The notes under the pieces were generated by a model. That model was not told the DNA's origin, did not search any database, and saw only the letters and a program-made list of their open reading frames with translations. DNA of 38,816 nucleotides from Pezizomycotina sp. ARF18 (lineage: Eukaryota; Ascomycota): the NCBI GenBank assembly GCA_002224055.1, contig AZLU01000235.1, positions 1 through 38,816 on the forward strand, written 5' to 3'. Positions 6,699-38,658 of this stretch are shown piece by piece. The stretch's first letter is position 1. Each line of letters begins with the position of its first letter. The translations under genes were made by a program, and so were the position numbers.

Positions 6699-8430
6699 AT
6701 GTCAAGTACAGGCGTGAACGCCTCAAGCACAAGTGCGCCGTTTGTGCCTTTGAAGCCTTTTCCTACCCCAGATACCAATCCCAATGGAGCAGATTCGAAT
6801 GTGGTGGATGTGAGTCTGTTCTGGCAGGTTAGTATACGAACATTCTCTCAAAAAAATTTTTTTTATATGAGACAAGAAAAGTATTCAAGATGTTTTTTTT
6901 TCCGTTCTTATACTGACAGTTCATGGCCACTTATCCTTTCTTTCCTAGACGGGTAACATGGCATGGATCATCACAGCGTCCGCCCTCGGTCTTCTCATGA
7001 TCCCTGGCGTCGGGTATTTCTACTCGGGTCTGGCAAGACGAAATCAGCATTATCATTAATTTGGTTGACGATGATGTCCACCGCGCTCGTAGCATTCCAA
7101 TGGGTGTTCTGGGCTATTCGCTTGCCTTTTCTCCAACGGCTGGGAAATTTATCGGCGACCTGAAGCACATGGGTTTACACGATGTCCTCGCGCGCAGCAT
7201 AACGGTCGCCCAGTCCCAGATATTTTGTACGCCCTCTTTCAGGGCATGTTCGCCGCTATTACTGTAGCACCCTCATCGGCGCTGCTGCCGAACGTGGCCG
7301 GATGTTACATGTGTTGTGTTCATGTTCGTGTGGTCTACCCTCGTATACGATGTGATAGCTTGCTGGGTTGGAACCCATCAGGTTGTCGTACAAGCTAGGA
7401 GGACTAGATTTCGCTGGAGGCACCCCCGTGCACATAAGCTCCGGATCCTCCGCTTTGGCATTCTCCCTCATGCTTGGAAAAAGACGTGGTCATGGCACCC
7501 ACGAGCTTAACTACAGACCCACAACGTAACGCATATTGTACTTGGTACAGTATTCCTGTGGTCGGATGGGTATGAAGATCCCCTTTTAATAAAGAAGAAA
7601 AAATTGCCGTTCTATTTTAAGGATACTATATATGGCTACAACTGAACTCTAGTTCGGCTTCAACGGTGGTTCCGCTCTGGGTGGCACCGTCCGTGCCGTC
7701 ATGGCTTGTATGTGCACGCACACCTCCGCATCGCTGGGAGGTATCACATGGTGCTTGCTGGATTACCGTCTAGAGCGCAAATGGTCCACCGTCGGCTTCT
7801 GCTCCGGTGTCATTGCAGGACTTGTCTGTATAACGCCCGGTCCGGTTACGTCCCCGTATGGTCCTCCATCATTTTTGGAGTTGTTGGCGCTGCAGCGTGC
7901 AACTATGCGACAAAACTTAAGTTCTTTTTCGGCGTTGATGACGCCCTCGATATTTTTGCCGTCCATGCGTCGGAGGCTTCACTGGAAATATTCTTACTGC
8001 ATTCTTCGCCGCATCTTATATACAAAACCTCGACGGAAGTAACGACAACGAACCCTTGGTTGGGTTGACCACCACTGGGCTCAACTTGGCATTCAGCTCG
8101 CTGACTCTGTTGCTGGATTTGCGTATGCGTTCTTCGTCACTTGTTTTTCCTCTTCGTTATGAACTTGATTCCGGGCCTCTCGCTCGCGCTAGTGAGGAAG
8201 CTGAAGTTCTCGGTATCGATGATGCTGAGCTGGGAGAATTTGCCGTACGTTTCCTAGACGCTACTTTTTTTTTTTTTTTTTTTTTTTTTTTGCAAGGCTT
8301 TATATACTAATTCGCTTTCTCGTTTTCTATTTTCTTGAAGTATGACTACGTCGAGCTCACTCGTGAGGTTGTCTCGGATGACGCGCCAATGGAGTCGAAG
8401 AAGCTCATGCTAGACATCGCATGCCAATGA
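6699..8430 (+). CDS. MEP2: Ammonium transporter, Mep2/Amt type (three introns, many base-error frameshifts)
   Basis: This Amt/Mep/Rh channel brings ammonium across the plasma membrane when nitrogen is scarce. The N-terminus (from the ATG at 6699) is followed by [20 protein letters not shown] near 6950 and [12 protein letters not shown] near 7010. GAAAERGRM lies near 7278. Both pore histidines are present: [12 protein letters not shown] near 7410-7440 and DIFAVHGVGGFTG near 7945-7985. Mep1/Mep3-type proteins carry Glu at the first position, so His points to the Mep2-like class. The end has [19 protein letters not shown] near 8175 and [16 protein letters not shown] at 8341, with a short tail and stop at 8428-8430. 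Introns are 6828-6948, 7570-7652 and 8245-8340; the last contains T27. At least 13 frame changes are present, each explained by one missing base in a short run. All channel motifs are intact, so I read the gene as functional. Confidence 0.93.
8265..8291 (+). repeat. Poly(T) tract, 27 nt, inside intron 3 of the ammonium transporter gene
   Basis: There is an uninterrupted run of T about 20 nt after the donor at 8245 and about 50 nt before the acceptor at 8340. In the sense direction it is a pyrimidine tract. Confidence 0.95.
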
Positions 8431-14599: not shown

Positions 14600-15824
14600 C
14601 TATAATTCATCCGCATCGTCCTCACTTTCGTCTTTCTTCTTCGTGTCCTTCTCTCCTTCCGGCCGCCGTAAGCTTTGTCTCTCTTTTCTTCTTCTATTAC
14701 TAGCCTTTCCAAACACTTCACCATGGACTGTCGCTCCTCCTCGCTGGCCTCTCCAGACCCCGCCCAGCGGATCCTACACCTCGCGTCTACGAGGTACACA
14801 AACCCGACCTTCCGGTTTAGCATACCAATGCTGTTCAGGAGGTCCTCCGTCAGCCCGCTCCTTACGAGCATGTACCTGTTGTACATTTCCTCCGTCAGCA
14901 GCCTCTTTATGTTCCCCATGGACATGACTACCATCCACGCCTTCAAGAAATTATCCTCGACGTTTATCCGCACGTGCTGCCATAGTGCATCCTCGGATTT
15001 CAACGTCCACGGCGTACCGTCGCGACCGTAAGTATCCGGCACCGACGCATACCCTCTGACGGCCGCCGAACCTGTGCCGTCGGACTGCTTCGCGGTGTTG
15101 AGTGCCGACGTAAACGTATTTACCTGCTGCTCCGCCACGCGTTCGAGAATAAGCCACGACGGACACCCTACCCGAAAACACCTGCGTGGTACCGATGTCG
15201 TCCGGGCTCGCCGCCGTCCCCGACCATGTTGGGGAAGTACAGCGCTTTGTCGGCTTTAAATACCCTCGTCGGAGCCACAAATATCTTCCTTCGTTGTAGC
15301 GCATGTCCTTGAATCTTGAAAGTATGAGCGCTTCATCTCGGCCGTGAGCTCTTCCCGCCGTTGCAGGTGCTTCGAGTAGTCCAGCAAATCTTCCTTCCGC
15401 TGCTTGTAGCTCCGCTCGTCGGCGCGGTGTTCTCATCCGTGTGGGGAGGGTCGAAGACGCCAATTGGACGTGAGAGCGGAGGACGGTGCGGGTACTGCCG
15501 TCCGCAGACGGTTTGGGCGCCGGCGGAGAGACGTAACCCTTGTGTACTCCATCATCGGCGGAGAGGTTCATGGTGGTCTTCGAAGAATGGATCCTGTTGA
15601 GGCTCGCTGGGCGGTAGAGGAGTGCTACTGGCGGCTTTGTCTGTTTGCTGCTGTAGTGTGGCTTTGGACGTTGAAAATGACTGAGCTGTTACTCTATCGG
15701 TAGTGAGCTTCGGTGGGCAGCTCGTACTACAGGTGATGCATTGTGTAGGCAGAAGATGCACCGCTGCGGCGCCGCGATGTGCCGACGTGAAAGGCGCAAA
15801 GCTAGTCCTGAGCACGCTGTTCAT
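14600..15824 (-). CDS. ATP10: Mitochondrial ATP synthase assembly factor Atp10 (intronless, frameshifted)
   Basis: Atp10 is an inner-membrane chaperone needed to assemble the Fo sector with subunit 6. From the ATG at 15824 the first 70 residues are rich in Ser, Thr, Arg and Ala with few acids (MNSVLRTSFAPFTSAHRG), fitting a mitochondrial presequence. The conserved blocks follow in family order: PIGVFDPPHTDENTA near 15470, YKQRKEDLLDYSKHLQRREE near 15400, FKDMRYNEGR near 15310, RVFKADKALYFPNMVG near 15265, then TPWTLKSEDALWQHVRINVE near 15010, FLKAWMVVMSMGNIK near 14945 and GFVYLVDARCRIRWAGSG near 14815. Correcting one lost base near 14660 gives an acidic tail ending ESEDDADEL and a stop at 14600-14602. 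At least seven single-base slips are needed. The 3' end faces CUS2 at about 265 bp. Confidence 0.92.
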
Positions 15825-21200: not shown

Positions 21201-21727
21201 ATGGACCTGAACAGGCTCAACAAAATATCGGAACGTCAAGCTCTGGTAGAGTCTCGATGATAGCATCCAGGAGAACAAGTCTTTGACCTTCCTCTCCAGC
21301 TCGCACTCCAACGTAACGCTCCGGTGGCAGCAAGGCCAATACGTCGGAGGTGGCACATTTGGTTCCGTCTATGCTGCCATCAACCTTGATACCGGCGATT
21401 TTCATGGCAGTGAAGGAGATCGCCTGCAAGACCGCAGCAGATACCTACGATCGTCAATGCCATCAAAGAAGAGATGACCGTGCTCGAATTTCTAGATCAT
21501 CCAAATGTCGTGCAGTACTATGGTATCCAGGTTCACCGCGACAAGGTCTATTTGTTTATGAGTACTGTTCGGGTGGCTCGCTTGCTCAGCTCCTCGAACA
21601 CGGAAGAATCGAGGACGAAATGTTTATTCTCATTTACACCCTCCAGTTGCTAGAAGGTCTTGGATATTTGCATGAGCGTGGCATCGTTCATAGGGATATC
21701 AAACCTGAGAGTAAGCCTTAATAGTTC

Positions 21728-21763
<36 letters not shown>

Positions 21764-22471
21764 CCGTGGCTAATTCTTTCTCTTTTTCTACCCTTCAGAT
21801 ATTCTTCTTGACCACAATGGTGTCATCAAATACGTAGATTTTGGTGCCGCAAAGGTTATTGCGAAGCAAGGGAGGACGCGTCTTCCTGAAGCCACGAAGC
21901 CGGCTTGAACAGTATGACTGGTACACCGATGTACATGTCTCCTGAAGGTCTGTCTCTCTCACTATAAATGTTATACCAGAGTAAAACACACGTATATTTC
22001 TCGTTCTGATGCTGATTATACTATTTTTAAATACAATAGTGATCAAGGAGAAAACCGTGGTCGCCACGGAAGCATGGACATCTGGTCCTTAGGCTGCGTA
22101 GTCCTGGAAATGGCTACGGGTCGTAGGCCGTGGGCGAGCCTTGACAACGAGTGGGCTGTCATGTGGAACATTGCCGCTGGAAATCCTCCGCAGCTGCCGA
22201 CCCCGGATCAGCTCAGCGAAGGCGGCATCGATTTTCTCGTCAAGTGCTTTGAGAGGGATCCGAAGAAGAGACCGACGGCTGCCGAGCTATTGCAGCATCC
22301 TTGGGTAAGTTTTTTTTTCCCCTCTGTTTATCTTATAATTCCTTTCACCCAGCTTGTTCTTGAGAACTACTGACATTTCTGTTTTTAAAGATTCTTACCA
22401 TCAAGGACCAAGTCATCGCACCTGGGACACCATCAAGCGAGTCAGGCAGCAGTGCCGTGTCGAGCAGATAA
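18215..22471 (+). CDS. SSK2: Ssk2/Ssk22-type MAPKKK of the osmostress (HOG) pathway (multi-exon, heavily frameshifted)
   Basis: In the known pathway this kinase is switched on by the Ssk1 response regulator and phosphorylates the MAPKK Pbs2, leading to Hog1/SakA activation. The long regulatory region shows ERLEWHAMLSSVLTGDVVRE near 18895-18955, VEKCYMLYPS near 19190, NITELVNTELTILHKWVG near 19300, KEDSLKSLVGKQ near 19443 and EAEWDFCNRVSRYFEGADLE near 19890-19950. The kinase domain follows: QYVGGGTFGSVYAAI near 21340, MAVKEI near 21402, MEYCSGGSLAQLLEHGRIED near 21555-21615, HRDIKPEN spanning the intron at 21711-21798, YVDFGAAKVI near 21832, MTGTPMYMSPE near 21915, DIWSLGCVVLEMATGRRPW near 22077 and RDPKKRPTAAELLQHPW near 22256. 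Other introns are 20126-20196 (with C16), 21948-22039 and 22305-22390. The stop is 22469-22471. The DFGAAK and GTPMYMSPE forms identify the Ssk2/MEKK4 class. The start, and possible further introns before 20126, are uncertain because of many slips. Confidence 0.9.
20150..20165 (+). repeat. Poly(C) tract, 16 nt, inside an SSK2 intron
   Basis: There is a run of 16 C between the donor at 20126 and the branch-like GCTAAC near 20175 in the 71-nt intron 20126-20196. It is the longest G/C homopolymer I noticed in the window. Confidence 0.95.
21731..21758 (+). repeat. Poly(T) tract, 28 nt, inside an SSK2 intron
   Basis: There is a run of T within the 88-nt intron 21711-21798, which splits the kinase catalytic motif HRDIKPEN. 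Confidence 0.95.
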
Positions 22472-23040: not shown

Positions 23041-23141
23041 GCTGCTTTAGCTCAATTGGCAGAGCGTGAGATTGCAGTTCGTCAACTGGTTGGCATCTGT
23101 TAATTATCTTAAGGTTCGTTGTTCGAGTCAGCGAAGCAGCT
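23041..23141 (+). tRNA. tRNA-Cys (anticodon GCA) with a 28-nt intron
   Basis: A full cloverleaf can be drawn. The acceptor GCTGCTT (23041-23047) pairs with AAGCAGC (23134-23140) over all seven positions. The D stem is GCTC/GAGC (23050-23053/23062-23065). The anticodon stem is TGAGA/TCTTA (23067-23071/23107-23111, one G-T pair). The T stem is CGTTG/CAGCG with loop TTCGAGT (23117-23133). The 5' side of the anticodon loop reads TTGCAG, placing GCA at 34-36 and a purine at 37. The canonical intron position after 37 gives an intron at 23078-23105. Base 73 is T (23141), the known identity base of tRNA-Cys. Box A (TAGCTCAATTGG) and box B (GTTCGAGTC) are present, and a T9 run at 23150-23158 can end Pol III transcription. 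Confidence 0.85.
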
Positions 23142-23841: not shown

Positions 23842-26282
23842 ATGGCGGACAATTAACACGGTATGCGGAAACGATTTCATCATGATCAATGGCGCATAGA
23901 TAGGAACAGTCCGCTAACATTCGTTGAAACAGTATTGCCATCGTGAGCTCAGATAAAGTACGAACGCTGATTCACAGACGCTCTTTTTATTCATTCCCTC
24001 CAAATGATTGCGCTTGGGATAGCTTGCTAACAGAACTTGTGTCGCCTGTGTGCAGTGTAAACCAAAAGTACGTTCAAACTACGGAAACCCTCCTTTCTTA
24101 GCTAGCAAACCTCTTTTCTTTGTTTTCCCAGCTCATGGTCAAGGAGCTGTTGTTGAGGTAACGATGCTAATTTTTCCTTTTTTTTTCCCCTTGCAACAGA
24201 AATGTAAACAAGAATGCCGGAAATCATGTCCCGTCAACCGTACCGGGAAGCTGTGCATTGAAGTCACGCCCGACTCCAGGATCTCCTTCATATCGAGCAG
24301 CTGTGTATCGGTTGCGGTATCTGCGTGAAGAAATGCCCTTTAGCGCCATATCGATCATCAACTTGCCGACGAACCTGGAGACCGAAGTGACGCACCGCTA
24401 CTCGGCCAACTCTTTCAAGCTGCACAGACTACCGACGCCCAGGCCGGGACAGGTTTTGGGTCTCGTGGGCACGAACGGTATCGGTAAAAGTACTGCGCTC
24501 AAGGTGCTGTCCGGGCAGCTCAAACCCAACCTGGGCCGCTACGATAATCCGCCGGACTGGTGGGACATCATCAAGCACTTTAGAGGGAATGAGCTCCAGA
24601 CGTACTTCCAAAAAGTGCTCGAGGAGAAGCTGAAGGCCGTCATCAAGCCGCAGTACGTAGATCAGCTCCCGAAAGCGCTCAAGGTTTCAAAGACGGTACG
24701 GGAGATGCTTCAGAGGAAAGATGATATGGATGCTTTAGACGAAATGGCCGATGTGCTTGGTAAGTGCTCAATCTTCAATCCTTCCTAAAAGATACTGGAT
24801 ATAGCTTCAAAACAAGCTATCGAATTTGGTTTCTGATCGTATTATAAACAATTAGAGCTTAAGGAGGTCCTGGACCGTGATGTTAGCAGCTTTCTGGTGG
24901 TGAGCTGCAACGTTTCGCGATAGCAATGGCTTGCGTTCAGAGGGCAGATGTGTAAGTTTTTGGCAATAAATCAGGAATGATCCACAGCCCCCTTTTTTTT
25001 TTTTTTTTTTGGCTAATGCATTTTTATCTTGTAGATACATGTTTGACGAGCCCTCGTCCTTCCTGGATATCAAGCAGCGCCTGAAGGCAGCCGCCACGAT
25101 CCGCGACCTGGTAAAGAAGAACGATCTAGGCTATGTCATCGTCGTCGAACACGATCTTTCCGTGTTGGATTACCTGTCCGACTTTATCTGCGTCCTTTAT
25201 GGCAGACCAGCCGCCTATGGTGTCGTCACTATGCCAGCTTCCGTCCGTGAAGGTATCAATATTTTCCTCGACGGCAATATTCCCACAGAGAATTTGCGCT
25301 TCCGCGAAGAATCGCTGCAGTTCCGCATAGGTGAAGCGGGCGATGACTTTGGCGCCGACCGCAGCCGCGCATTCAAGTACCCATGCATGGTGAAGACGCA
25401 GGGCGACTTCCAGCTTACAATAGAGGAGGCAGCTTCACCGATTCCGAGATTATTGTCATGATGGGCGAAAACGGTACCGGGAAGACAACGTTCTGTAAGC
25501 TCCTGGCAGGTCTGGAGCAGCCGGATGCTGAGTCGAATAAGGTCCCGCAACTGTCTATTTCGCTCAAGCCGCAGACGATTACCGGAAGATTCCCAGGAAC
25601 CGTCAGGATGCTATTCCTGAAGAAGATCAAGGCTGCTTTCCTTAGCCTCAATTCCAAACGGATGTCTACAAACCGCTCAAAATCGACGATTTCATCGACC
25701 AGGAAGTTCAGAATCTGTCCGGTGGTGAATTGCAGCGTGTCGCCCTCGTCTCGCGCTCGGCAAGCCCGCCGACATCTACCTAATCGATGAACCGTCGGCC
25801 TACCTCGATTCGGAGCAGCGTATCATTGCCTCGAGAGTCATCAAGCGGTATATCATGCACGCGAAGAAAACGGCTTTCGTCGTCGAACACGATTTCATCA
25901 TGGCCACTTACCTGGCCGACCGCGTTATCGTCTTCGAAGGTCAACCCTCTGTTAGAGCTACCGCGACGACACCGCAATCCCTCCTAACCGGCTGCAACAA
26001 GTTCCTGAAATCACTAAACGTCACGTATGAGCCATAACTCCTCCAGTTTGTTATTCATTAGTCCGCCATGATCTCTCAAAGCTAATATTTTAAACAGTTT
26101 CCGACGAGACCCATCCTCCTACCGCCCGAGGATCAATAAGCTGGACAGTCAGCTCGATCAAGAACAGAAATCATCTGGCAACTACGTGAGTTACCTCATC
26201 CCATGTCGCTTTTCTAAATTTCGATATATCTTACTAACCACCCTCTTCAACACCGTAGTTCTTCCTCGAAGAGACTGCTTAA
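23842..26282 (+). CDS. RLI1: Rli1/ABCE1 Fe-S ABC ATPase, ribosome recycling factor (eight exons)
   Basis: Rli1 splits terminated ribosomes in the cytosol together with eRF1 or Dom34. The protein begins [19 protein letters not shown] across three very short exons (23842-23860, 23933-23957, 24056-24067). Exon 4 starts at 24200 ([12 protein letters not shown]). Both Fe-S cysteine motifs are visible, the second as [13 protein letters not shown] near 24305. Nucleotide domain 1 has GTNGIGKST near 24468, [20 protein letters not shown] near 24893 and [11 protein letters not shown] at 25036; VIVVEHD is near 25136. Domain 2 has GENGTGKTT near 25465, [20 protein letters not shown] near 25715 and [12 protein letters not shown] near 25773. 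The stop is 26280-26282 after FFLEETA. Introns are 23861-23932, 23958-24055, 24068-24199, 24760-24855, 24952-25034, 26025-26097 and 26186-26258 (branch TACTAAC). Frame slips at about 23852, 24294, 24344, 24893, 25427, 25636 and 25752 are single missing bases. Confidence 0.96.
24993..25010 (+). repeat. Poly(T) tract, 18 nt, inside an RLI1 intron
   Basis: There is a run of T in the 83-nt intron 24952-25034, about 25 nt before the acceptor. Confidence 0.95.
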
Positions 26283-27877
26283 AATTTCGACCTTTGTATA
26301 TCCAAAAACGTTTTCCTGTGTGCATTTTTTCTGGGCATTATTATTGGTATTTGTACTCATTTCATTTTTATTTTCGCCAAAGAAACCAAACTTTGGCGTC
26401 ATGAAGTCATCATTCGTCTGCTTCCTTTGGGAATGGAGTAGGGGAGTATCACATGTCCTCTGAACCTTTTTCAACGGCTTATTTTTTTCCTTTTGGCTTT
26501 GCTTTCTATTTGGACTATATTATCGTCTTTCAAACTAAACGGCATTCCTTGAGTAAAGTAGGGAACAAGATGAAAGGGCTGTTGTTTTAATATATGAAGT
26601 AAGAATATAAAAAGTTTTTTATTTTTTCTTTTGATTCAAACCATTTTTGTGTTTCTAGCAAGGTTCCTATTGGTTTTCTTAACTTTTGCTATCGGTAATA
26701 TTCGCTTTAAACGCCTTGAACGGCCCTTGAAGAGTAGATTTGGCCCCTTGAGTATGAAGAATAAAGACGACGTAAAGGAGAAAAAACCCAAGCTTGGGTT
26801 GGTGGTATCGCGTGGTTTCGTGAGGCCCCGTCGCAATACGAAAAATACGAAATTCACCTGATACCGCTAATACATGTCGATACTTGCCTTGCAGATGAAT
26901 CATTATTCAATCTCTCCCGGCTTGGTTTATTTTCTTCCCCTTTCCTTTTTTTTTGTGATCATATTGTCTCATCATAATAGCGGGTTGGTAATGTACCAAC
27001 TTACCTATGCTATTAACACCCCTATTGTAGGGTTCCTGTTGATAGAGTACATAATGGCTGGCATCGATGACTTCCGGTGATCATTTCATGGGTGTATTAG
27101 GTCTTCAGGGAAGGCTTACTTGGAGATATTGTTCTTCATTGTTTTCATATAGCATGATAGCTGTGGCCCGGGTAGTCTCACAAGCTTTTGACTTGTTTGG
27201 ATACGTACGCATGCTTATCGATGTTAGTATCTCAGCCAATGACCGTGATCAGGAGAATATACGAACTAAAATCCCTTTTGCAGGAAGGAAGGGCTTTCAT
27301 CAAACGTATCACCACTTATAGCTTTTGACCTTCCTGCTCTGAAGCCTTTCTCGATGATCCATCTGTTTAGCCAGAAGTCATATTAAAAAGGTGAAAATAT
27401 AATGATAGTTCCTTTTTTAATGAACAGGGGTCGTTATGGAAAAACACAAAAGATAGTAGAATTAGATAGTGTGCTGATACAACGCACCGTGGTAGGTTTG
27501 TTAGAGCCGTGTCTCGCTGCCTTCAACGAAATACTTGTCAAATATGAAATTAGGAGAGAAAATGTTTTGAAAAAATCCGAGAGCAGTTAGTCCGCTTCCA
27601 GACTTTGAGTGTTAGTTCATACCTCAGATGACTTCTTCCGCCAAAAAATGCATATAAGGGGCTACAAGAAACGCTCCAGTAGTAGTAAAATAAACATAAA
27701 ATAAAAATATTATAGAAATCAATCAAGGATGCAGAACTTTTCCCCCTCTTAGTATCTTGATATGCATAACGATAGACCCCATATACTCTTGCTTTTTGAA
27801 CGAGAAAGTCCCTATTTCTTTTCATGAGTCGGAACCTGGAGTTTCTACCCTTGGTTAACTTAGCCTGAATTTCTTTT
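26283..27877. other. Convergent intergenic region between RLI1 and PRP40
   Basis: This 1.6 kb lies between the 3' ends of two convergent genes. It is A+T-rich with only short overlapping frames, none with a recognisable domain. A perfect 16-bp palindrome (AACCCAAGCTTGGGTT) lies at 26785-26800. Confidence 0.6.
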
Positions 27878-30800
27878 TTACTCTGCAATTTCCCCTTCTT
27901 CGCTCTCGGCGCCGCCATCTTCGGGAACTTCTCCGTCTTCGCGCTTAGTGGACTGAGAATCCTTCTCCGTTTGAGGTGTGCGGTCACGGTTGGAGCGATC
28001 CTTTCTTGAACGCTGCAGTATTCACTTGTTAGCAATCTTTGTTCCACGCGAAGGTTTTGTAAAATGATCAACCAACTAACCTTCGAGCTTCGTTTCGATC
28101 CATCACTGTCTTCACCAGGGCTCTGGGACGGGCTCTGCGCCGAGAACTGCTGATACTAGCATCATCGCGGTCCTTCGACCTGTACTGGCGCTCTCGCTCT
28201 TCCTCCCGCTCGCGCCTCTCGCGGTCGTAGATACTCTCGGAGTGGCGTCCTGTCACGGTCCCTGTCACGATCGCGGTCACGTTCTCGCTCGCGCTCACGA
28301 TCGCGGTCATATCTTTCTCTATCGCGGTCACGGTCTCTATCGCGTTCGCTGCGGCCCACAGGGAAGCCAGTTCCTCCCTTCTGGTGTTGCCGCTCCCTCT
28401 CACCCGCAGCGCGCCTACGCTCTGCTTCGTAGGGATCGACCTCGGGAGTCCTGCGGTGCACGGAACGGGGACTGCGACTTCCGCGGTAGTGGTGACCGTT
28501 CCTGTCTCGATCCCTATCGCGCTCCCGCTCCCGATCGCGTTCGCGGTCTCGATCTCGATGGTCTCTGTCACGGTCGCGATCCCTATCTCGCTCGCGCTCA
28601 CGATCTCTGTCCCGCTCACGCTCCCTATCGCGATCACGGTCTCTGTGCCTATCCCTAGCATCTCGGGATCGCTCGCGGTCCAGCTTCTCGGCACCTCTAC
28701 TAGACTTGCGCTCCTTGCGGTCCGCCTCACGATCGTCGTCCTGCCTGTCCTTCAGTCGCCTTATGACCTTGTCAAAAGCGGCCTGGCGCATTTCCTCGGA
28801 GTCTAGATCACGGAAACTCATCGTATTTAGCGATCCGAGGACGTACCTGTTCCCACGTGTCGCTCACGGATACGGGCGGATCGAGGTGCTTGATCACGGA
28901 TCTCAAGGCATCTACGCGCCTTCGCTGGTGGCGTTCCGACTGGTGCCTGTCTTCTTCGCGACGACGCTCGGCTTTCTCGCGAATCTTATCGAAAATCACA
29001 GCGTACATTTCACCGTCCAACCTAGCTGTTTTTGGGTCACTCTGCAAAACTTGAACAAACTCTTCAAGTGTGGTGTTAGGAGTCCATTGAAAACGCTTCT
29101 CCTCCAGAACATCCAATGCGTGGTTTTTCCACTGGCGGAGGTCACGATCAACCTCTTCCATCTTGTCCCAGAAAAGATCCAACGGCGTGGATCCAGGTTG
29201 CCCAAGCATGTTCTTATACCTCTCGTCATCTTGAATGGAGGGATATATTTGCTTCCATTTCGAACCTGGGCGTATTTCTCCCTTGGAGTGTAATTCGTCG
29301 AGGAGGGCCTATTTTGACGGTCAGTAAGAAAGCTTGGACGGGCAACTGATTACGGCTTATACTTACAACAAAGTCTTCACGGTGTTTCCTTTCCTCTCTC
29401 TGCTTAACGGTCTTTTGTTTTTGCTTCTTGTCGTTCTGCGATCTTCAAGGAATTTGATATGTCCCTCGTAAACGCTCAAAACATCGAGTTTGGAAAGAGC
29501 CTGGAATTTCGGTTCAGACTTGAATGTTTCGTTCTCTTGGATGATGTCTTGGGCTTCTGACCATCGAGTGTATGGCTCTAGAATAAGAGACTTGAGCAAA
29601 GTTTGCAACTCCTCCATCGCTTGCTTCCGTTCGCTAGCTTCCCTTTCTTCCTCCTGCTTGCGGAGTCCAATAACGTATTCACAAAGAGATTGCGCCTTTC
29701 GTTTTTCGTCGGCAGTAGACCTAAATATAGTCTCTTTTTCGATGATCGGACGGGCAGTTCTAGTGGAGGCGTTATGATTAGTAAATATATACGAAACAAA
29801 TGATATATCTAAATATCATCTAGAAAGGCCTATGTGTGTAAGACTTACCGCCATCTAGTGTAGTATTTTGATTTCAGGATGGCTCTTGAGCATCGTCGCA
29901 AAGTCCTGCCGGAGCTTCGACATCCTATCCTTTGCCTTTCTAGATCTTGCAAGCGCAAATCTGCAGTATACTTCTCGAATGCCGCTCTCCTGTCCTTAGG
30001 GTCCTTGATGGCTCGGTACTGGGGTTCCTTGATAACGGCCCTCATTGTCTGCTCCCATGTCCAGTCGGAACCTACCCGCACTTCTTAAGCATTTTGAAAA
30101 AAGCGGCTTCCGCTTCAGCGGGATTGGAGTACTCATTCTTCTCAGCGTCGGACTTGCCGACCTCTTTGGCGACATCGGCAATCAATCCTGAAATAGCGGC
30201 CGCACGTTCCGGGTTCATTCCTTCATCCTGTAAGCTTTGTTGCTGCTGGTGCTGCTGTTGAGGTATTTGAGGGAGACCATGGCCAGGCTGCAGGGTTGGC
30301 GGTTGTCCTTGTTGCTGAGGCGGAACAAACGGTTGGTGCTGTTGGTGGAGAGGGTGCTGGAACGGATGATGGTGCTGGTGTTGCGGAAAGTGCGGATGGT
30401 GAGGCGGGCCGTGGTGTGAGGCGCCATGATGCGGAGGCCCTTGCTGATGAGGCTGCTGCTGTTGGTGCGGCTGCTGTGGAGGCCCTCCAGGCTGCTGCGG
30501 CGGTTGCTGTCCCTGCTGTTGATTTGGTCTCCAGGTTATATTACTATAAGTCGGTACACCACCAGCCACGAATTGAGGCCTGTTTATGTCAAAAAGTTCA
30601 AGTATATTGTTAGTCGAGGCTGATGTTTAGTCACGTGATATATGAATGAATGAAAGAAATAAAGAAGGCTAGAAACTCACGCTGCCGGTTTGTTAGCAGC
30701 CGCTTGCTGCTCTGCCATTTCCTTCCCATATTCAAGGGCAGCCTTATACGTCTCAGGCATCTCCCAGACACTCTGCTTGGTCTTTTCGTGAGACCAGTAC

Positions 30801-31049
30801 TTCTTTCCCTCGGGCGTCGTGTACTCCTTCCATGGTTGAGCCGCAATGGCTTTCTAAATAGATTCGAAAAAAAAATCTCATCAGCGCCGGTTCCTCAGAA
30901 GTCGCCAAAGTGGGTAGTCTGAAAAAAGAGCACTCACCTCCACCGGAGTCATCAAGTCTACGGTTTGTCCATTGCGTCTGGTTAGTCCTCGTGTTATAGT
31001 AATATATCCTGCCATCCGTATGCTTCGCTTCCTGCCAAAGCGCAGACAT
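27878..31049 (-). CDS. PRP40: Prp40 pre-mRNA processing protein: two WW domains, FF domains, Q/P/H linker and RD/RE-rich tail
   Basis: Prp40 is a U1 snRNP protein that bridges the 5' splice site complex to branch-point factors. The ATG at 31049 opens with WW1 (ALWQEAKHTDGRIYYYNTRT). WW2 follows intron 30854-30937 (PWKEYTTPEGKKYWSHEKT, then QSVWEMP). After intron 30580-30680 comes a linker of about 100 residues rich in Gln, Pro and His (30530-30240). FF-type blocks follow: FFKMLKKCG/VGSDWTWEQTMRAV near 30100-30050, KDRMSKLRQDFATMLKSHPE near 29920-29870, LKSLILEPYTRWSEAQDII near 29595-29540 and STPLDLFWDKMEEVDRDLRQ near 29190-29130. Intron 29760-29848 splits this part. The C-terminal third is dense in Arg-Asp and Arg-Glu dipeptides (28660-28190). 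After intron 28013-28080 the acidic end EDGGAESEEGEIAE runs to the stop at 27878-27880. Slips occur near 30965, 30080, 29430 and 28240. Confidence 0.94.
28190..28660 (-). repeat. RD/RE dipeptide-repeat coding tract in PRP40
   Basis: About 470 bases encode tandem Arg-Asp and Arg-Glu dipeptides (for example RDRDRERERDRDRERER). The DNA is a degenerate hexamer repeat of the CGCGAT/CGTGAC type. The same tract gives long open frames on the opposite strand (28242-28658 and 28384-28806), which are repeat artefacts. Confidence 0.9.
30240..30535 (-). repeat. Gln/Pro/His-rich coding tract in PRP40
   Basis: The segment encodes a linker of repeated QQ, PP, HH and HQ units between the WW pair and the first FF domain. 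It is a CAG/CAC-like degenerate repeat, prone to length change, and its antisense frames are artefacts. Confidence 0.9.
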
Positions 31050-31680
31050 CTTGTTGATTCCCTGTAGCCAGATATGGCACAAAAAAAAGGAGCGGCGCTT
31101 TGGTTAGGTCACAGAAATACGACAAGTGATAAGTTCGATGAATAGAAATGAAAGATTCTATCGGCAGAAAGGACGAAATAGATCACTAAATCAATGGAGA
31201 TAGATAGTTAAAAAACAATAACAAAATATAGGAAAAAAGAGAGATTGGAAGATACTAAGTGGGGGGATGTATATATTTTTTAAGTATTATTTAAGTGTGG
31301 AAGCGCGTTCGGTGGTGAGAAGGAAATGAAAATTTTCGAGGGTGGAAGGAAGAGGCTAATTATTATTTTTAATTTTCCCGAAAATTTAAATTTCTTTTTC
31401 TTTTTCCTTCCCCTCTCAGAAACAGAGTAATAAAGGTCCCTAATATATAGCTTGGCCTATCCCTACCTGTTTAGCTATTACACACCCAGAGCTTCGGGCT
31501 CCTTGATTTATACGCTTCTACAAAAGGCCTCAGTCGACTATCACCAGCTCTCCCTTATCCTCTTCCCGCCATTTCTTAATTCTTCTTTAGTCTTCTCGAT
31601 AATGTCTACTTGCGATGCGATGGCGATGGCGATGAAAGTATTTCTGCTACGTTCCGCCGGGTCACCGGCGAACGACAACC
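31050..31680. promoter_or_regulatory. Divergent promoter region of PRP40 and TRS65
   Basis: About 630 bp separate the two start codons, so both promoters must lie here. An AG acceptor just upstream of the PRP40 ATG (CTACAG near 31064 on the minus strand) may mark a leader intron. The centre (31200-31400) is A+T-rich. I see no RNA gene. Confidence 0.45.
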
Positions 31681-33785
31681 ATGGATATCATAGAACGAGC
31701 TCGTATCGACGTTATCGTACCAGACGCGACAAATTTGAACATGGAAGAGTACCTCGACGCATCAAAGACAATACAAACCCGCCTCAACCGCCTGCAGAAC
31801 ATGCGAAGCGCAAAGGAGATATTAACCAGCCGCCAATTGCTCTTCCCTTACTTGCTGGATCAAGCAACGTAGGGTTTTATTTTATGGTAAGAACAATTCC
31901 AACGAAATCGAACCTTTTGTTTTCTTTTTTCCTTGATTTTCTTTTAATTCTTATCGTCTCTATAGCTTTGTCTTGGGGGAAATCTCACCTACTAAACAGC
32001 AATTCGCTTACATTACTGACAGTTCTGGCACTGTAGACGAAGATGTGCCGCTGTTCATTGCCCTGCAGATAATCGGCGTCCAGGATGATGCGCTTTTCGA
32101 ATCATACAATTCACGGTTAGCAGTTTCGTTGGAGGTACACGCGAACGACAATCAAAATCAGCGGGTAGCGCGCCGGTCGCTATTAAGGAGAGCGAAGGCG
32201 CTATACTGCTTTACCAAAAAACCATACAGGAAAATGACGGGAGCAGGATATCAAGAAGAATAGGCGACACTCGGATATCCGTTTGGAAGCTAGCAGTCCC
32301 AGTTGGTACGATTTGTTTTGTTTGCCCTTTGATTAGCTTATTCGACTTGGTTATCGTGGTATTTTGTGGACTTTAGCGATTGATTTTACTTCCAGGCCAC
32401 CCGAAAGTCAAGACCTCTAGCCCGCGCGTAATGTTCTCCGCATCAGCGACCATTCGATATTACGCACATGATCAGAAGCAGCAACCTACTGACGACGAAT
32501 ACATGCCGAGTTCCGAACCTCTCGGCGCGAATCTGCTGGAAACCTTTGACGTTGGACATTTTGACGAGGAGGGCGATGGCAAGACGGCACCGCCTTTCTT
32601 TCCGCACGGCGTGTCTCGAGAGTGATACCAGCGGCTCCTACCCCTAAGGAGCTATTTAGGTCCCTAGGATATGCTTCCAGAAGATCATTCTCGATCTTGC
32701 CTGCCATAAACTTTAAGTTGCGCGGTTCGAGGCTAGCGCTTTCAACGACGCAAAATATGGTTGCGTGCCTTCATCTCGAAGCCACTTCCCATGCCAACTG
32801 CGAAGTTCGGATCGACGAGGTCTCGCTCCGCATGCCTACAGGAGTTCGGAACTCATTGCAGAGCCTGATGTCCTTAAGCTTCCTCTCATTTTAAGACCTC
32901 AAGATGAGATGATACTCCTATATTCGCTACAATCGAAAGGGCCTCGGAGCTTAGTACACCGATAGTAAATCCCTCGCTCATCAAGAAGCTTACAGTAAGG
33001 TTGAAAGGGGAAGCACAGGTTTCGACCGGTGCCGTCCGCTGATAGCGACGTTCTGGATACCACGATCGACTTTACCAGCTCGTCGATAACAACCAGCAAC
33101 AGGAGCATGGCGCCTCACCTGCAAAAGTCGTTGCGCCCGCCCCAGGCGCGGCCGCAGTCTCAGTCCGGCGCTGTAAGCAGACCCGTTACGCCGCAATATC
33201 CGCAGCAGTCCCAGCAGTCCCAGTTCACGCTGGTGGGCTCGGTAGCAATGATTTTATGGATTAATGATAACTTTTACAGGTCCCGACCGAGTCTACGTCG
33301 GTGAGGTATTCAGCTGGCAGGTTTTCGTGGTCAACCGGGCAGCGTCACCGGAAGCTTGCCCTGGTGGTACCGCCTAAGAGGCGGAAAGGCGAAGGGAAGC
33401 TTTTGCCAAATCCTCCTCAGAGCTCTACGGAACCTGTATTGGACGAAGGTATAATATCGTCTACCTACAGGAGCAGATACCTGCAGCCTGCAGAACTTAT
33501 ACCGCTTATTAATGACGTCAGAATAGGGTAAGATATTTCCGTTTATTTTTCGATTATACGATTTCTGAGGGAGCATTTAGCGCGACTATGTATTTATGAA
33601 TATACTATATTGGTTTTGCTTGCTAACTGTAATTCCAAACGAAAAAGACCACTAGCGCCAAACGCCTGCCACACGTGGAACTGCGGTTCATGCCGTTAGC
33701 TACCGGCGTGCTTGCCGTTGAAGGCGTGCGGGTGATAGACCTCCTGACTAACGAGGCTACCGACTGTCGGATCTTCCCAGCGTGA
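31681..33785 (+). CDS. TRS65: TRAPPII complex subunit Trs65
   Basis: Trs65 is a fungal subunit of TRAPPII, the Rab guanine-nucleotide exchange complex at the late Golgi. The start ATGGATATC at 31681 gives ERARIDVIVPDATNLNMEEY, the typical N-terminal block. The middle part is recognisable as ILPAINFKLR near 32695, NMVACLHLEATSHANCEVRI near 32754 and DEVSLRMP near 32815. The C-terminal domain has GPDRVYVGEVFSWQVFVVNR near 33280 and KLALVVPPKRRKGEG near 33352. PLAPNACHTVELRFMPLATG lies near 33650 and VEGVRVIDLLTNEATDC near 33718; the stop is 33783-33785. The last intron is 33528-33647 with GCTAAC branch. An intron near 31888-31964 is likely, as is one ending at 33279, whose donor (33231 or 33242) would make it unusually short. 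Several single-base slips are present, and the part 31850-32650 is only partly resolved. Confidence 0.87.
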
Positions 33786-34747
33786 TTTGCATCAGCCGGC
33801 GCCAGTAGAAACTCCAGGGAAATTTTCTTTTCTTCCCTTTTCACTATATCCCCAATGATATCCCAATATCCCTTCAACCTTGGACCTCGTTTTAGTAGCA
33901 TTGTAAATAGTACGTAAATCTAATAATTTAACGTAATGAGTATTACACTATCAGTATATGCACCGCCTCTCTTTGACGCGTGAGGTATTTTGGCTCCTAC
34001 ATTCCTTCAGGTCCTCAAACGTAGATCAGCCTCGTAAAAGCTTTTTCTGGATGCATCCATCTAGACAAAACAAAATAAATTATATTTATTAACTCTATAT
34101 TCATCTTTCATCTTTAATCCTCTTCTCCATTTCAATCTCTTTTTTCCCTCCTTTCTCTTCGATCCATTCCATTCTTCTTTAATCCTTTGATTTCGATATA
34201 TTTTCGATATTTTTCGGATTTTGGGATCCCTTAGAAGTGCAGCCGCGACGCCACCGAGCGTTTACTACTTACTGTTCCGGAAGAATGCCCCTTAAGCTTA
34301 AGGGTCCGCTGTCTCCTACGTAATCCCCCACTGCTCCCGAATAAAATCTCCGGCTCTCGCCTGCTTCTGGCCACTAAACAATATCATCTTTAAAATCATT
34401 AATTGGCATCGATCATCTTCTCGAGCTAGTTCGCTCTCCCCTTTTTGTTTCTTTTTTTCTTTTCTTTTTTTTTGTATTTATTCTTTTGGTTGTTAAGTCG
34501 ATTTTGTTTGCCTTTTTTCCCTAAAAATGTCACCGTCCTTGCTGGTTCGAGGTCGAAGATTCAAGAGACACCTTGACGAAAAATACATCTATAATAGATT
34601 CGTAAGTTAAATTTTTTCCTTCCCTCAAATGTCTTTCCTTTCAAACAACGATATCCTCAACCTCACTCATTCGTTTCAAATTTATTTTCTAACAAGAAGA
34701 ACAGCCTCTAGTAAAACGCACTAGTGATCCTAGTGATATTCATAGCA
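33786..34747. other. Intergenic region and 5' leader of the Mpv17/PMP22-type gene
   Basis: The region is T/C-rich from about 34090 to 34215 and again from 34430 to 34520, as expected for a fungal promoter. It contains a small upstream ORF and a possible leader intron, both described separately. I see no other gene. Confidence 0.5.
34527..34610 (+). promoter_or_regulatory. Possible upstream ORF (27 codons) in the leader of the Mpv17/PMP22-type gene, overlapping a donor-like site
   Basis: An ATG at 34527 in good context (CTAAAAATGTCAC) opens a 27-codon frame beginning MSPSLLVRGRRFKRHL and ending at 34608-34610. A donor-like GTAAGT at 34602 lies in its last codons, and CTAACAAG near 34690-34697 could be branch and acceptor. 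If spliced, the frame would be altered. It may act as a regulatory uORF, or be a first coding exon I cannot join. Confidence 0.3.
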
Positions 34748-35623
34748 ATGTCGAAGCTCATATCCGCCTTCAACTCTTACTACGAGCGGAAGCCGCTGCT
34801 CACGATGATGGTATCGAACTCCGTACGTTTCTTCAGAATCCCAAGCTCCTAATTCTAGAGCTTCGAGCATTTTCAATCTCAACACCTTCGCTTTTATTTT
34901 TCTAAACAGATTAATCAATTAACTAACGAACTGTAAATGAAGATCCTAAACGGCCCTCGCGGACACCGCCGCCCAGACAGTAACCGCGATACGGAACGTG
35001 CCCTCCGCAAACCGCTCGGTCCCGATCCGGCAACGGACCCTCTGGCCATCGAAATCGGCGAAATCGACCGCAAAATACCCGAACAACTATCCCCACAACC
35101 TTCGCACAACAGCGGCCTGCGTAACGTCCTCAGCAACAACAACGGCGGACTGATACCGCCATCCCGCGACCTCCCGCCGCCGTTCGACTTCGAAAGGCTG
35201 GCACGCTTCATGGTCTGGGGCTTCGCCATGGCGCCGCTGCAGTTCACCTGGTTCAAGATACTCTCACGGACATTCCCTATCACGGCGCGCAACAAGGACG
35301 CCGCGTTCTCGCAGACGCTAAAGCGCGTCGGGTGCGACCAGCTCATGTTCGCGCCCGTCGGCCTGGCGATGTTCTTCACGTACATGACGCTAGCGGAAGG
35401 AAAAGGGAAGAAAGAAGTTTATCAAAAGTTTCAACAGGGTGTACATACCCGCGCTGAGGGTAATTACATGCTGTGGCCGGCGGTGCAGATTGTGAACTTT
35501 AGGTGGATGCCGATACAGTTCCAGCTGCCGTTCGTTTCTACGGTGGGATATTCTGGACGATCTTATTTGAGCCTGACGAATAGCGCCGCGGAGTATAAGA
35601 AGGTGTGGACCACATTTGAATAG
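34748..35623 (+). CDS. Mpv17/PMP22 family integral membrane protein, '25D9-6' type
   Basis: Members of this family sit in the peroxisomal or mitochondrial inner membrane; this subgroup with a long hydrophilic insertion is typical of Pezizomycotina and has no established substrate. Exon 1 (34748-34822) encodes NSYYERKPLLTMMVSNS. The intron 34823-34942 has a CTAAC branch near 34922, and exon 2 opens ILNGALADTAAQTVTAIR. The insert IEIGEIDRKIPEQ is near 35050, then PPPFDFERLARFMVWGFAMA near 35175 and PLQFTWFKILSRTFPIT near 35235. VYQKF near 35418 and the family signature WPAVQIVNFRWMPIQFQLPF near 35475-35535 come next, then a C-terminus STVGIFWTIYLSLTNSAAEY. A lost G near 35548 and an extra T near 35567 compensate each other, so the given frame reads through with a wrong segment of about six residues. 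Confidence 0.9.
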
Positions 35624-37059: not shown

Positions 37060-38658
37060 TTACAGCTCAAGAGCCTTGGCTTCTCCCAGCTGAATTCCTG
37101 GTTCGTGAAGTGGCGTTCTTCGCGGTAGCGAGGTACTTGGGCTTGGCAAGATCGAGCTCCTGGACAATGACACCAGGGCGCATGTCGAAGTTCTTCTTAA
37201 TGATCTCGACAAGCTCGTCCGAAGACTTCTTGCTAGTACCGTAAGTCTCGACAAAGATCGACAGAGCTCTGCGACACCAATAGCGTAGGAAGCTGGACAA
37301 GGCAGCGGCGGGCGAGTCCAGCGTTTGACTAGCGACTTCGCGATCCACCGGGCGAGGTAGGCGGCAGATCTGTCGACCTTGGAGTAATTCCTTCCGGAGA
37401 AAGCACCACCTCCGTGGCCTCCGTGACCACCGTAAGTGTCAACGATGATCTTGCGGCCAGTAAGGCCGGCGTCACCCTGAGGTCCACCAATAACGAAACG
37501 ACCCAGATGGTTGAATCTAAAAAAGAGAAGGGAACCAGTCAGTAACTCAATTGCATTTATCGCGGGTTTTAACTCTTGGGATTCTATTTGTTAGACTTAC
37601 ATGATAGACGTTCTGTCGTCGAGATATCTCTCGGGAATGGCTTCCTGACGATCTATCGAGAATCTGCTTCCCTGAGCTCGGGGAGAGATATCTTCTGAGT
37701 GCTGGCTGAGACGACGACAGTGATCCACTCTCCGGGAACGAAAAGCGCCACCCTGGTTCTCAGTACTAACAGTAACTTGGGTTTTGGTATCTGGCCTCAA
37801 CCAGGCCAGAGAGCCGTCGCGCCTTGCCTTGGACATTGCTGAGTGAGCCTGTGTGCGAGGAGGATAGTAAGGGGAGAAGTTCGGGTTTCGTCGGTAGCAA
37901 ACCGAACATGATACCCGATCACCGGCACCAAGCTCTTCGAGGGCCTTCTCGTAGTGGAGACCCTGAGCGATTATCAGAGGACTGTGCTCAATTGCCACAA
38001 GGATATTGCAGGTCTTGTAGTCGAAGCCCTTGTCGGACAGTCATAGCGATGTCACGGATGGTGTTGCGGATAACTTCTTGGTAGTCAAGATGGCCCTGGT
38101 GGTATTTCTCCGAAGCCATTATCATTCTGTGACGCGGCGTTAGCATTCTGCAGTTATTTTCTTCTATTAACACAAAATCGCAATATAGGTTGTTTCAAGC
38201 CGGTTAAGCGCATCGAGGTTGGCTTTCCTTTTCCCTTTCTTTCTTTTTTTTTTCTTTTTTCCTGGTATCACAGAGCCCTTTATTTCCTCCGGAAAGGAGA
38301 GCCTGCATTCACATGCATGTCTCCCAACAAAGCAAGACATACGAAAAAGGGAAGGAAGAAAAATTAAAAGAACTTAAAATGCTTACCAGTTTTCGTGGCC
38401 GCTCGCAGCAACCTTTGATAGGGGATCCTCAGCAAGGCAACATCGAAATAGCATCCGAAACTTGAATCATATTGGCAAAAAAAAAAAAAACATTCAGTCA
38501 GGCTATTAACAAATCCACAAATATCTTCTCGGAGCTCTAAATTCATCTTCCGCCGCAATTGCACCAGGAATACTTACGCGATCTTGTCCGGGTGGCTTCA
38601 CCGACAGATTCGAGGTGAAGAGGAAAGTCTTTCCGAGCGTTCCGTTGGGGACAGTCAT
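37060..38658 (-). CDS. SAM1: S-adenosylmethionine synthetase (methionine adenosyltransferase), multi-exon
   Basis: The enzyme makes S-adenosylmethionine from methionine and ATP in the cytosol. Exon 1 (38658-38578) encodes [16 protein letters not shown] and, after two lost bases, the ATP-binding ESVGEGHPDKI. Exon 2 ends at 38387 and carries EDPLSK. Exon 3 starts near 38126 and gives MIM, then [15 protein letters not shown], a slip-broken stretch and [16 protein letters not shown] near 37965-37915. [20 protein letters not shown] near 37840-37785 and an intron of about 90 nt (near 37514-37601) follow, then [20 protein letters not shown] near 37510-37445 and [13 protein letters not shown] near 37430. 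The C-terminus KPKALEL precedes a stop at 37060-37062. GHPDK and the Gly-rich GGAFSGKD motif are intact after base correction. More than ten slips occur, several in the most invariant parts of this enzyme. Confidence 0.95.

Follow-up and report, generated by a model that had tools for sequence, protein, structure and literature searches.

Single-base losses in short homopolymer runs, very probably consensus errors, break conserved genes in the assembly of Pezizomycotina sp. ARF18

Protein prediction from long-read assemblies is reportedly the subject of a published warning. According to the texts on Kastor (PMC12007338) and Polypolish (PMC8812927), long-read drafts contain frameshifts, and errors in homopolymer length are the commonest kind; both address small or bacterial genomes, whereas the genome considered here is fungal. 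A fungal parallel is provided by Drechmeria coniospora (PMC7500977), where unpolished (nanopore-only) assemblies have errors mostly in homopolymers and their reading frames are broken, fewer than one-sixth of 305 conserved genes were predicted at full length in the new genomes, and run lengths were corrected by short-read polishing. The likeness lies in conserved genes whose reading frames are broken by indel errors. The two cases differ in that the count there covered runs of at least four and polishing made more insertions than deletions, whereas here runs of two and three lose bases and deletions dominate. PacBio assemblies are described in that paper as free of the problem, so that more than one platform may lie behind the present assembly.

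The whole genome comprises 46,361,250 bases in 408 contigs, and the window, i.e. the whole stretch of DNA analysed (38,816 bases), is bases 1-38816 of contig C235 (62,735 bases). The broken genes found in it and elsewhere are almost certainly artefacts of a known kind, neither dead genes nor a case of novel decoding. Judged from the assembly alone, the lost bases are very probably residual consensus errors of a poorly polished, coverage-limited assembly. Indel-prone reads, presumably error-prone long reads, would have been merged at too little depth or with too little polishing, so that stretches of two to four identical bases would often have come out one base short. The fungus itself presumably has intact MEP2, RLI1, SAM1, and CCT genes. 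For most longer genes, gene models, pseudogene counts, and claims of gene loss drawn from this assembly would be wrong.

Broken genes in the window and on other contigs

The identities of three genes in the window were obtained with phmmer against solved structures (PDB):

6699..8430, + strand: MEP2-type ammonium transporter gene, frame broken (PDB Mep2 chains, E 5.9e-103; aligned part about 6955-8244)
24295..26025, + strand: RLI1/ABCE1 gene (aligned part), frame broken (yeast Rli1, E 4.1e-237)
37121..38083, - strand: SAM1-type S-adenosylmethionine synthetase gene (aligned part; MAT2A chains, E 2.5e-70)

Raw DNA was aligned to protein by frameshift-aware dynamic programming, which permits losses or gains of one or two bases as well as GT-AG introns and penalises one-base losses and gains equally. 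As a control, metK and amtB of E. coli, both intact, went through an identical alignment against the protein references used here and yielded no frameshift. When 245 deletions were planted across the whole of E. coli metK, of which the reference spans a part, 125 were recovered as deletions and four as insertions. Columns without reference letters (X), which held one stop in SAM1 and seven in CCT2, were excluded from the codon counts.

In the 390 aligned codons of MEP2 (1,170 nt), single bases are lost at 14 sites, one per 84 nt, and neither an insertion nor an in-frame stop occurs; at a stiffer frameshift penalty of 16 or 20, 12 deletions and one insertion are called. A first-pass annotation made from the letters had placed 13 frame breaks in this gene. 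All 13 lie within 10 nt of an aligned deletion call, and the alignment adds another loss site near 8054. RLI1 (501 codons, 74% identity) has lost single bases at five sites and is free of insertions and stops, and its event count is constant over frameshift penalties of 9-20. For SAM1, the alignment shows seven one-base deletions and two insertions in 250 codons, or five one-base deletions, one insertion, and one two-base deletion at penalty 20. Outside the window, 30 candidates were scored for the chaperonin family and produced 33 matches. CCT3 (C139), CCT2 (C54), and CCT4 (C24), aligned to their yeast counterparts, have two, four, and five one-base deletions, respectively, and their compared codons contain neither insertions nor stops.

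When the genes are pooled (RLI1, MEP2, SAM1, CCT2, CCT3, and CCT4; six in all, from four contigs), 37 one-base deletions and two insertions occur in 2,329 codons, which corresponds to one deletion per 189 nt, and the pool contains no in-frame stop. The excess of deletions over insertions (direction p = 3e-9) agrees with the earlier observation that nearly every frameshift is one lost base; both insertions are in SAM1. The protein sequence on either side of the losses is conserved, as had also been noted: identity to distant orthologues is 53-79% across the six genes, and flanking identity to yeast reaches 70-79% in the universal single-copy genes RLI1, CCT2, CCT3, and CCT4. Deletion density spans an eightfold range, from 1.5 per kb in CCT3 to 12 per kb in MEP2, and this spread is tentatively ascribed to local depth.

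The protein alignments leave some freedom in where a loss is placed. Among equally good placements of a deletion, a mean share of 0.475 extends a run; this value covers 29 of the 37 deletions, and the other eight were omitted because a neighbouring event was too near. For MEP2 alone (10 events) the share is 0.44. Deletions planted uniformly gave 0.287 (SE 0.064, 29 events) and those planted in runs only gave 0.535 (SE 0.072). The observed share exceeds the value for uniform loss and approaches that for losses confined to runs; the placements thus seem to favour runs over uniform loss, a consistent but weak signal. The more specific assertion that each site falls in a run of two or more asks for site-by-site proof, for which the protein alignments place the losses too loosely; the run rule is exact on 5S rRNA, as described below.

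The same rule had been extended to further genes of the window. It can be followed in RLI1 and SAM1, where one-base losses were counted (with the two gains in SAM1), whereas SSK2, ATP10, and TRS65 offer only Pfam pieces in different frames, and introns are possible there. CUS2, also named in the first-pass annotation, did not turn up in the frames that were scanned. The features concerned, with two others, are:

14701..15482, - strand: ATP10 gene; Pfam PF05176 pieces in two reading frames, with a possible intron between them
21416..22307, + strand: protein kinase domain, the SSK2 of the first-pass annotation; Pfam PF00069 pieces in two reading frames
28964..31037, - strand: Prp40-like gene; Pfam WW, FF, and FF_PRPF40A pieces in three frames, introns possible
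33337..33782, + strand: TRS65 IgD3 domain; Pfam PF12735 pieces in two reading frames
34937..35623, + strand: Mpv17/PMP22-family gene, the unbroken exception; open 228-aa frame, Pfam PF04117

Introns could partly explain the frame changes in the kinase, ATP10, TRS65, and Prp40-like genes. The Mpv17/PMP22-family frame is the longest ORF listed for the window. A Pfam scan of two whole 15-kb frames returned a single weak match, to an ammonium transporter; fragments this short thus call for more than a domain scan. A genome-wide search for a near-identical duplicate of positions 26800-34900 of the window returned only four short matches of 71-77% identity, so that a haplotig comparison is impossible for this stretch.

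5S rRNA copies, rDNA repeats, and mitochondrial DNA

Near-identical dispersed RNA genes within one assembly provide a cheap, read-free gauge of indel error and of its dependence on run length. The genome search yielded 15 5S rRNA matches. These genes lie apart from the rDNA repeat, scattered over ten or more contigs, and comprise at least two sequence types and diverged copies. After removal of four diverged copies (L013-L016), the counts rest on 11 near-identical copies of two sequence types, three of which are the reference or identical to it. In these copies 13 deletions and one insertion occur, or 0.99% per base. Runs of two or more contain 12 of the 13 deletions, against a background base share of 0.377 (p = 7e-5), and the losses per run for lengths one to four are 1/816, 4/129, 7/69, and 1/7. 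Runs of all four bases are struck, with no fixed slip motif observed at the losses. The full runs are kept in other 5S copies of the same genome, and the loss is therefore not a fixed property of the site. Five copies (L005, L007, L008, L010, and L012) share among them eight deletions and one insertion without any substitution. 5S copies are sometimes pseudogenes, and L011, with four deletions and three substitutions, may be one.

Coding and noncoding sequence are thus both affected, the 5S rate comparing with 0.5% in the six genes. The 5S rate is also similar to the one loss per 110 coding bases proposed in the first-pass annotation; that figure is not general, however, given how far the density varies from gene to gene.

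The rDNA and the mitochondrial DNA, both high-copy, look clean, unlike the single-copy nuclear sequence. On contig C189, four rDNA copies form six pairs, each with no mismatch over 1,572-2,432 columns and with zero to five gaps per pair, although the copies share one contig, the assembler may have used one consensus for all, and the loci are partly masked. Several of the gap columns sit at the start of an alignment or beside masked stretches. The first two copies are spaced 10,867 bases apart, and a group I intron match adjoins the 3' part of the 18S gene (L089:825-1104, L092:823-1103).

Contig C50 is mitochondrial, as indicated by its tRNAs and cox1, and its cox1 matches contain TGA. Together with the gene content (introns, CCT subunits, Trs65, and Mep2), this TGA indicates a fungal genome. 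Over 59,387 bases of C50 read with code 4, the frames, which were selected by length, run stop-free for 505, 383, 311, 294, 263, and 258 codons, and all six match models of LAGLIDADG or GIY-YIG endonucleases, cox1, cob, or nad1; by comparison, the longest ORF listed for the 38,816 bases of the nuclear window reaches 228 aa. When deletions were planted in these mitochondrial sequences, one per 142 nt, the frame lengths survived in none of 60 trials, and at one per 1,411 nt in one of 60, a test that begins from the observed sequence and is indicative only. The contig is very large, with listed tRNA matches from 5,177 to 230,805 and cox1 matches from 91,811 to 206,518. Positions 1 to 50-52 of the cox1 model are matched at two separate sites, and at both the match shares its reading frame with a LAGLIDADG endonuclease.

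Losses in single-copy nuclear sequence that are not seen in rDNA or mitochondria are what insufficient depth or polishing of the consensus would produce. The first-pass reading, uncorrected homopolymer-deletion error, thereby gains support from several sides: the ratio of deletions to insertions, the lack of in-frame stops in the six genes, 5S losses that scale with run length, broken CCT genes on three more contigs, and the clean rDNA and mitochondrial sequence.

Alternative explanations and other features of the window

If the source were not a long-read consensus but a flow-based platform (454, Ion Torrent) that undercalls homopolymers, this would be compatible with the dependence of loss on run length in 5S, and G and C runs of at least four are indeed scarcer than expected under a simple chain (G4, 33 vs 56.5; C4, 51 vs 66). 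Such an origin is nonetheless unlikely. The 5S losses occur already in runs of two and three, yet T runs as long as 29 bases are retained in the window, and the existence of contigs longer than 700 kb (C3 has a tRNA match near base 706,900) favours long reads; both arguments presuppose the usual behaviour of these platforms.

True gene decay would place pseudogenes with mutational loss of bases in the window or throughout the genome. The frames are broken as written, and four of the 15 5S copies are diverged. Against this stand the 2,329 codons that hold no in-frame stop beside the 37 deletions, and the identity to orthologues, which stays high; the nonsense and missense changes that accompany frameshifts in pseudogenes are thus not the pattern seen in the six genes. 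Moreover, RLI1 and the CCT subunits are broken on four contigs, and these genes are essential in yeast. The five 5S copies that lose bases in runs without substitution point in the same direction, and decay is accordingly most improbable as the source of the losses.

Residual consensus error also has to be weighed against unusual decoding or insertional mRNA editing that would restore the frame at short runs. Losses that are nearly all single-base, lie in runs, and leave the flanking protein conserved are what such a mechanism would produce. Programmed frameshifting or mRNA editing would, however, be confined to decoded or edited transcripts, and the untranslated 5S rRNA genes show like losses at like places. 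Runs of all four bases are affected there, no fixed slip motif having been observed, and other copies in the genome keep the full runs. Since 5S RNA is untranslated and full runs persist in other copies, neither decoding, nor mRNA editing, nor decay of coding genes accounts for the losses, and the chance that decoding or editing underlies them is minute. That the nuclear genome truly lacks the bases and a run-guided insertion restores many RNAs, including 5S rRNA, while the rRNA repeats and mitochondria are exempt, is barely conceivable.

At least 54 matches to tRNA genes occur in the genome; they were left out of the error counts. One of the tRNAs, 101 bases long and with a probable intron, lies at 23041-23141 of the window, where it is found by Rfam and missed by ARAGORN under the settings used. 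Among the long T runs of the window, one spans 8265-8291, and one is located inside an apparent MEP2 intron. The window also contains one C run of 16.
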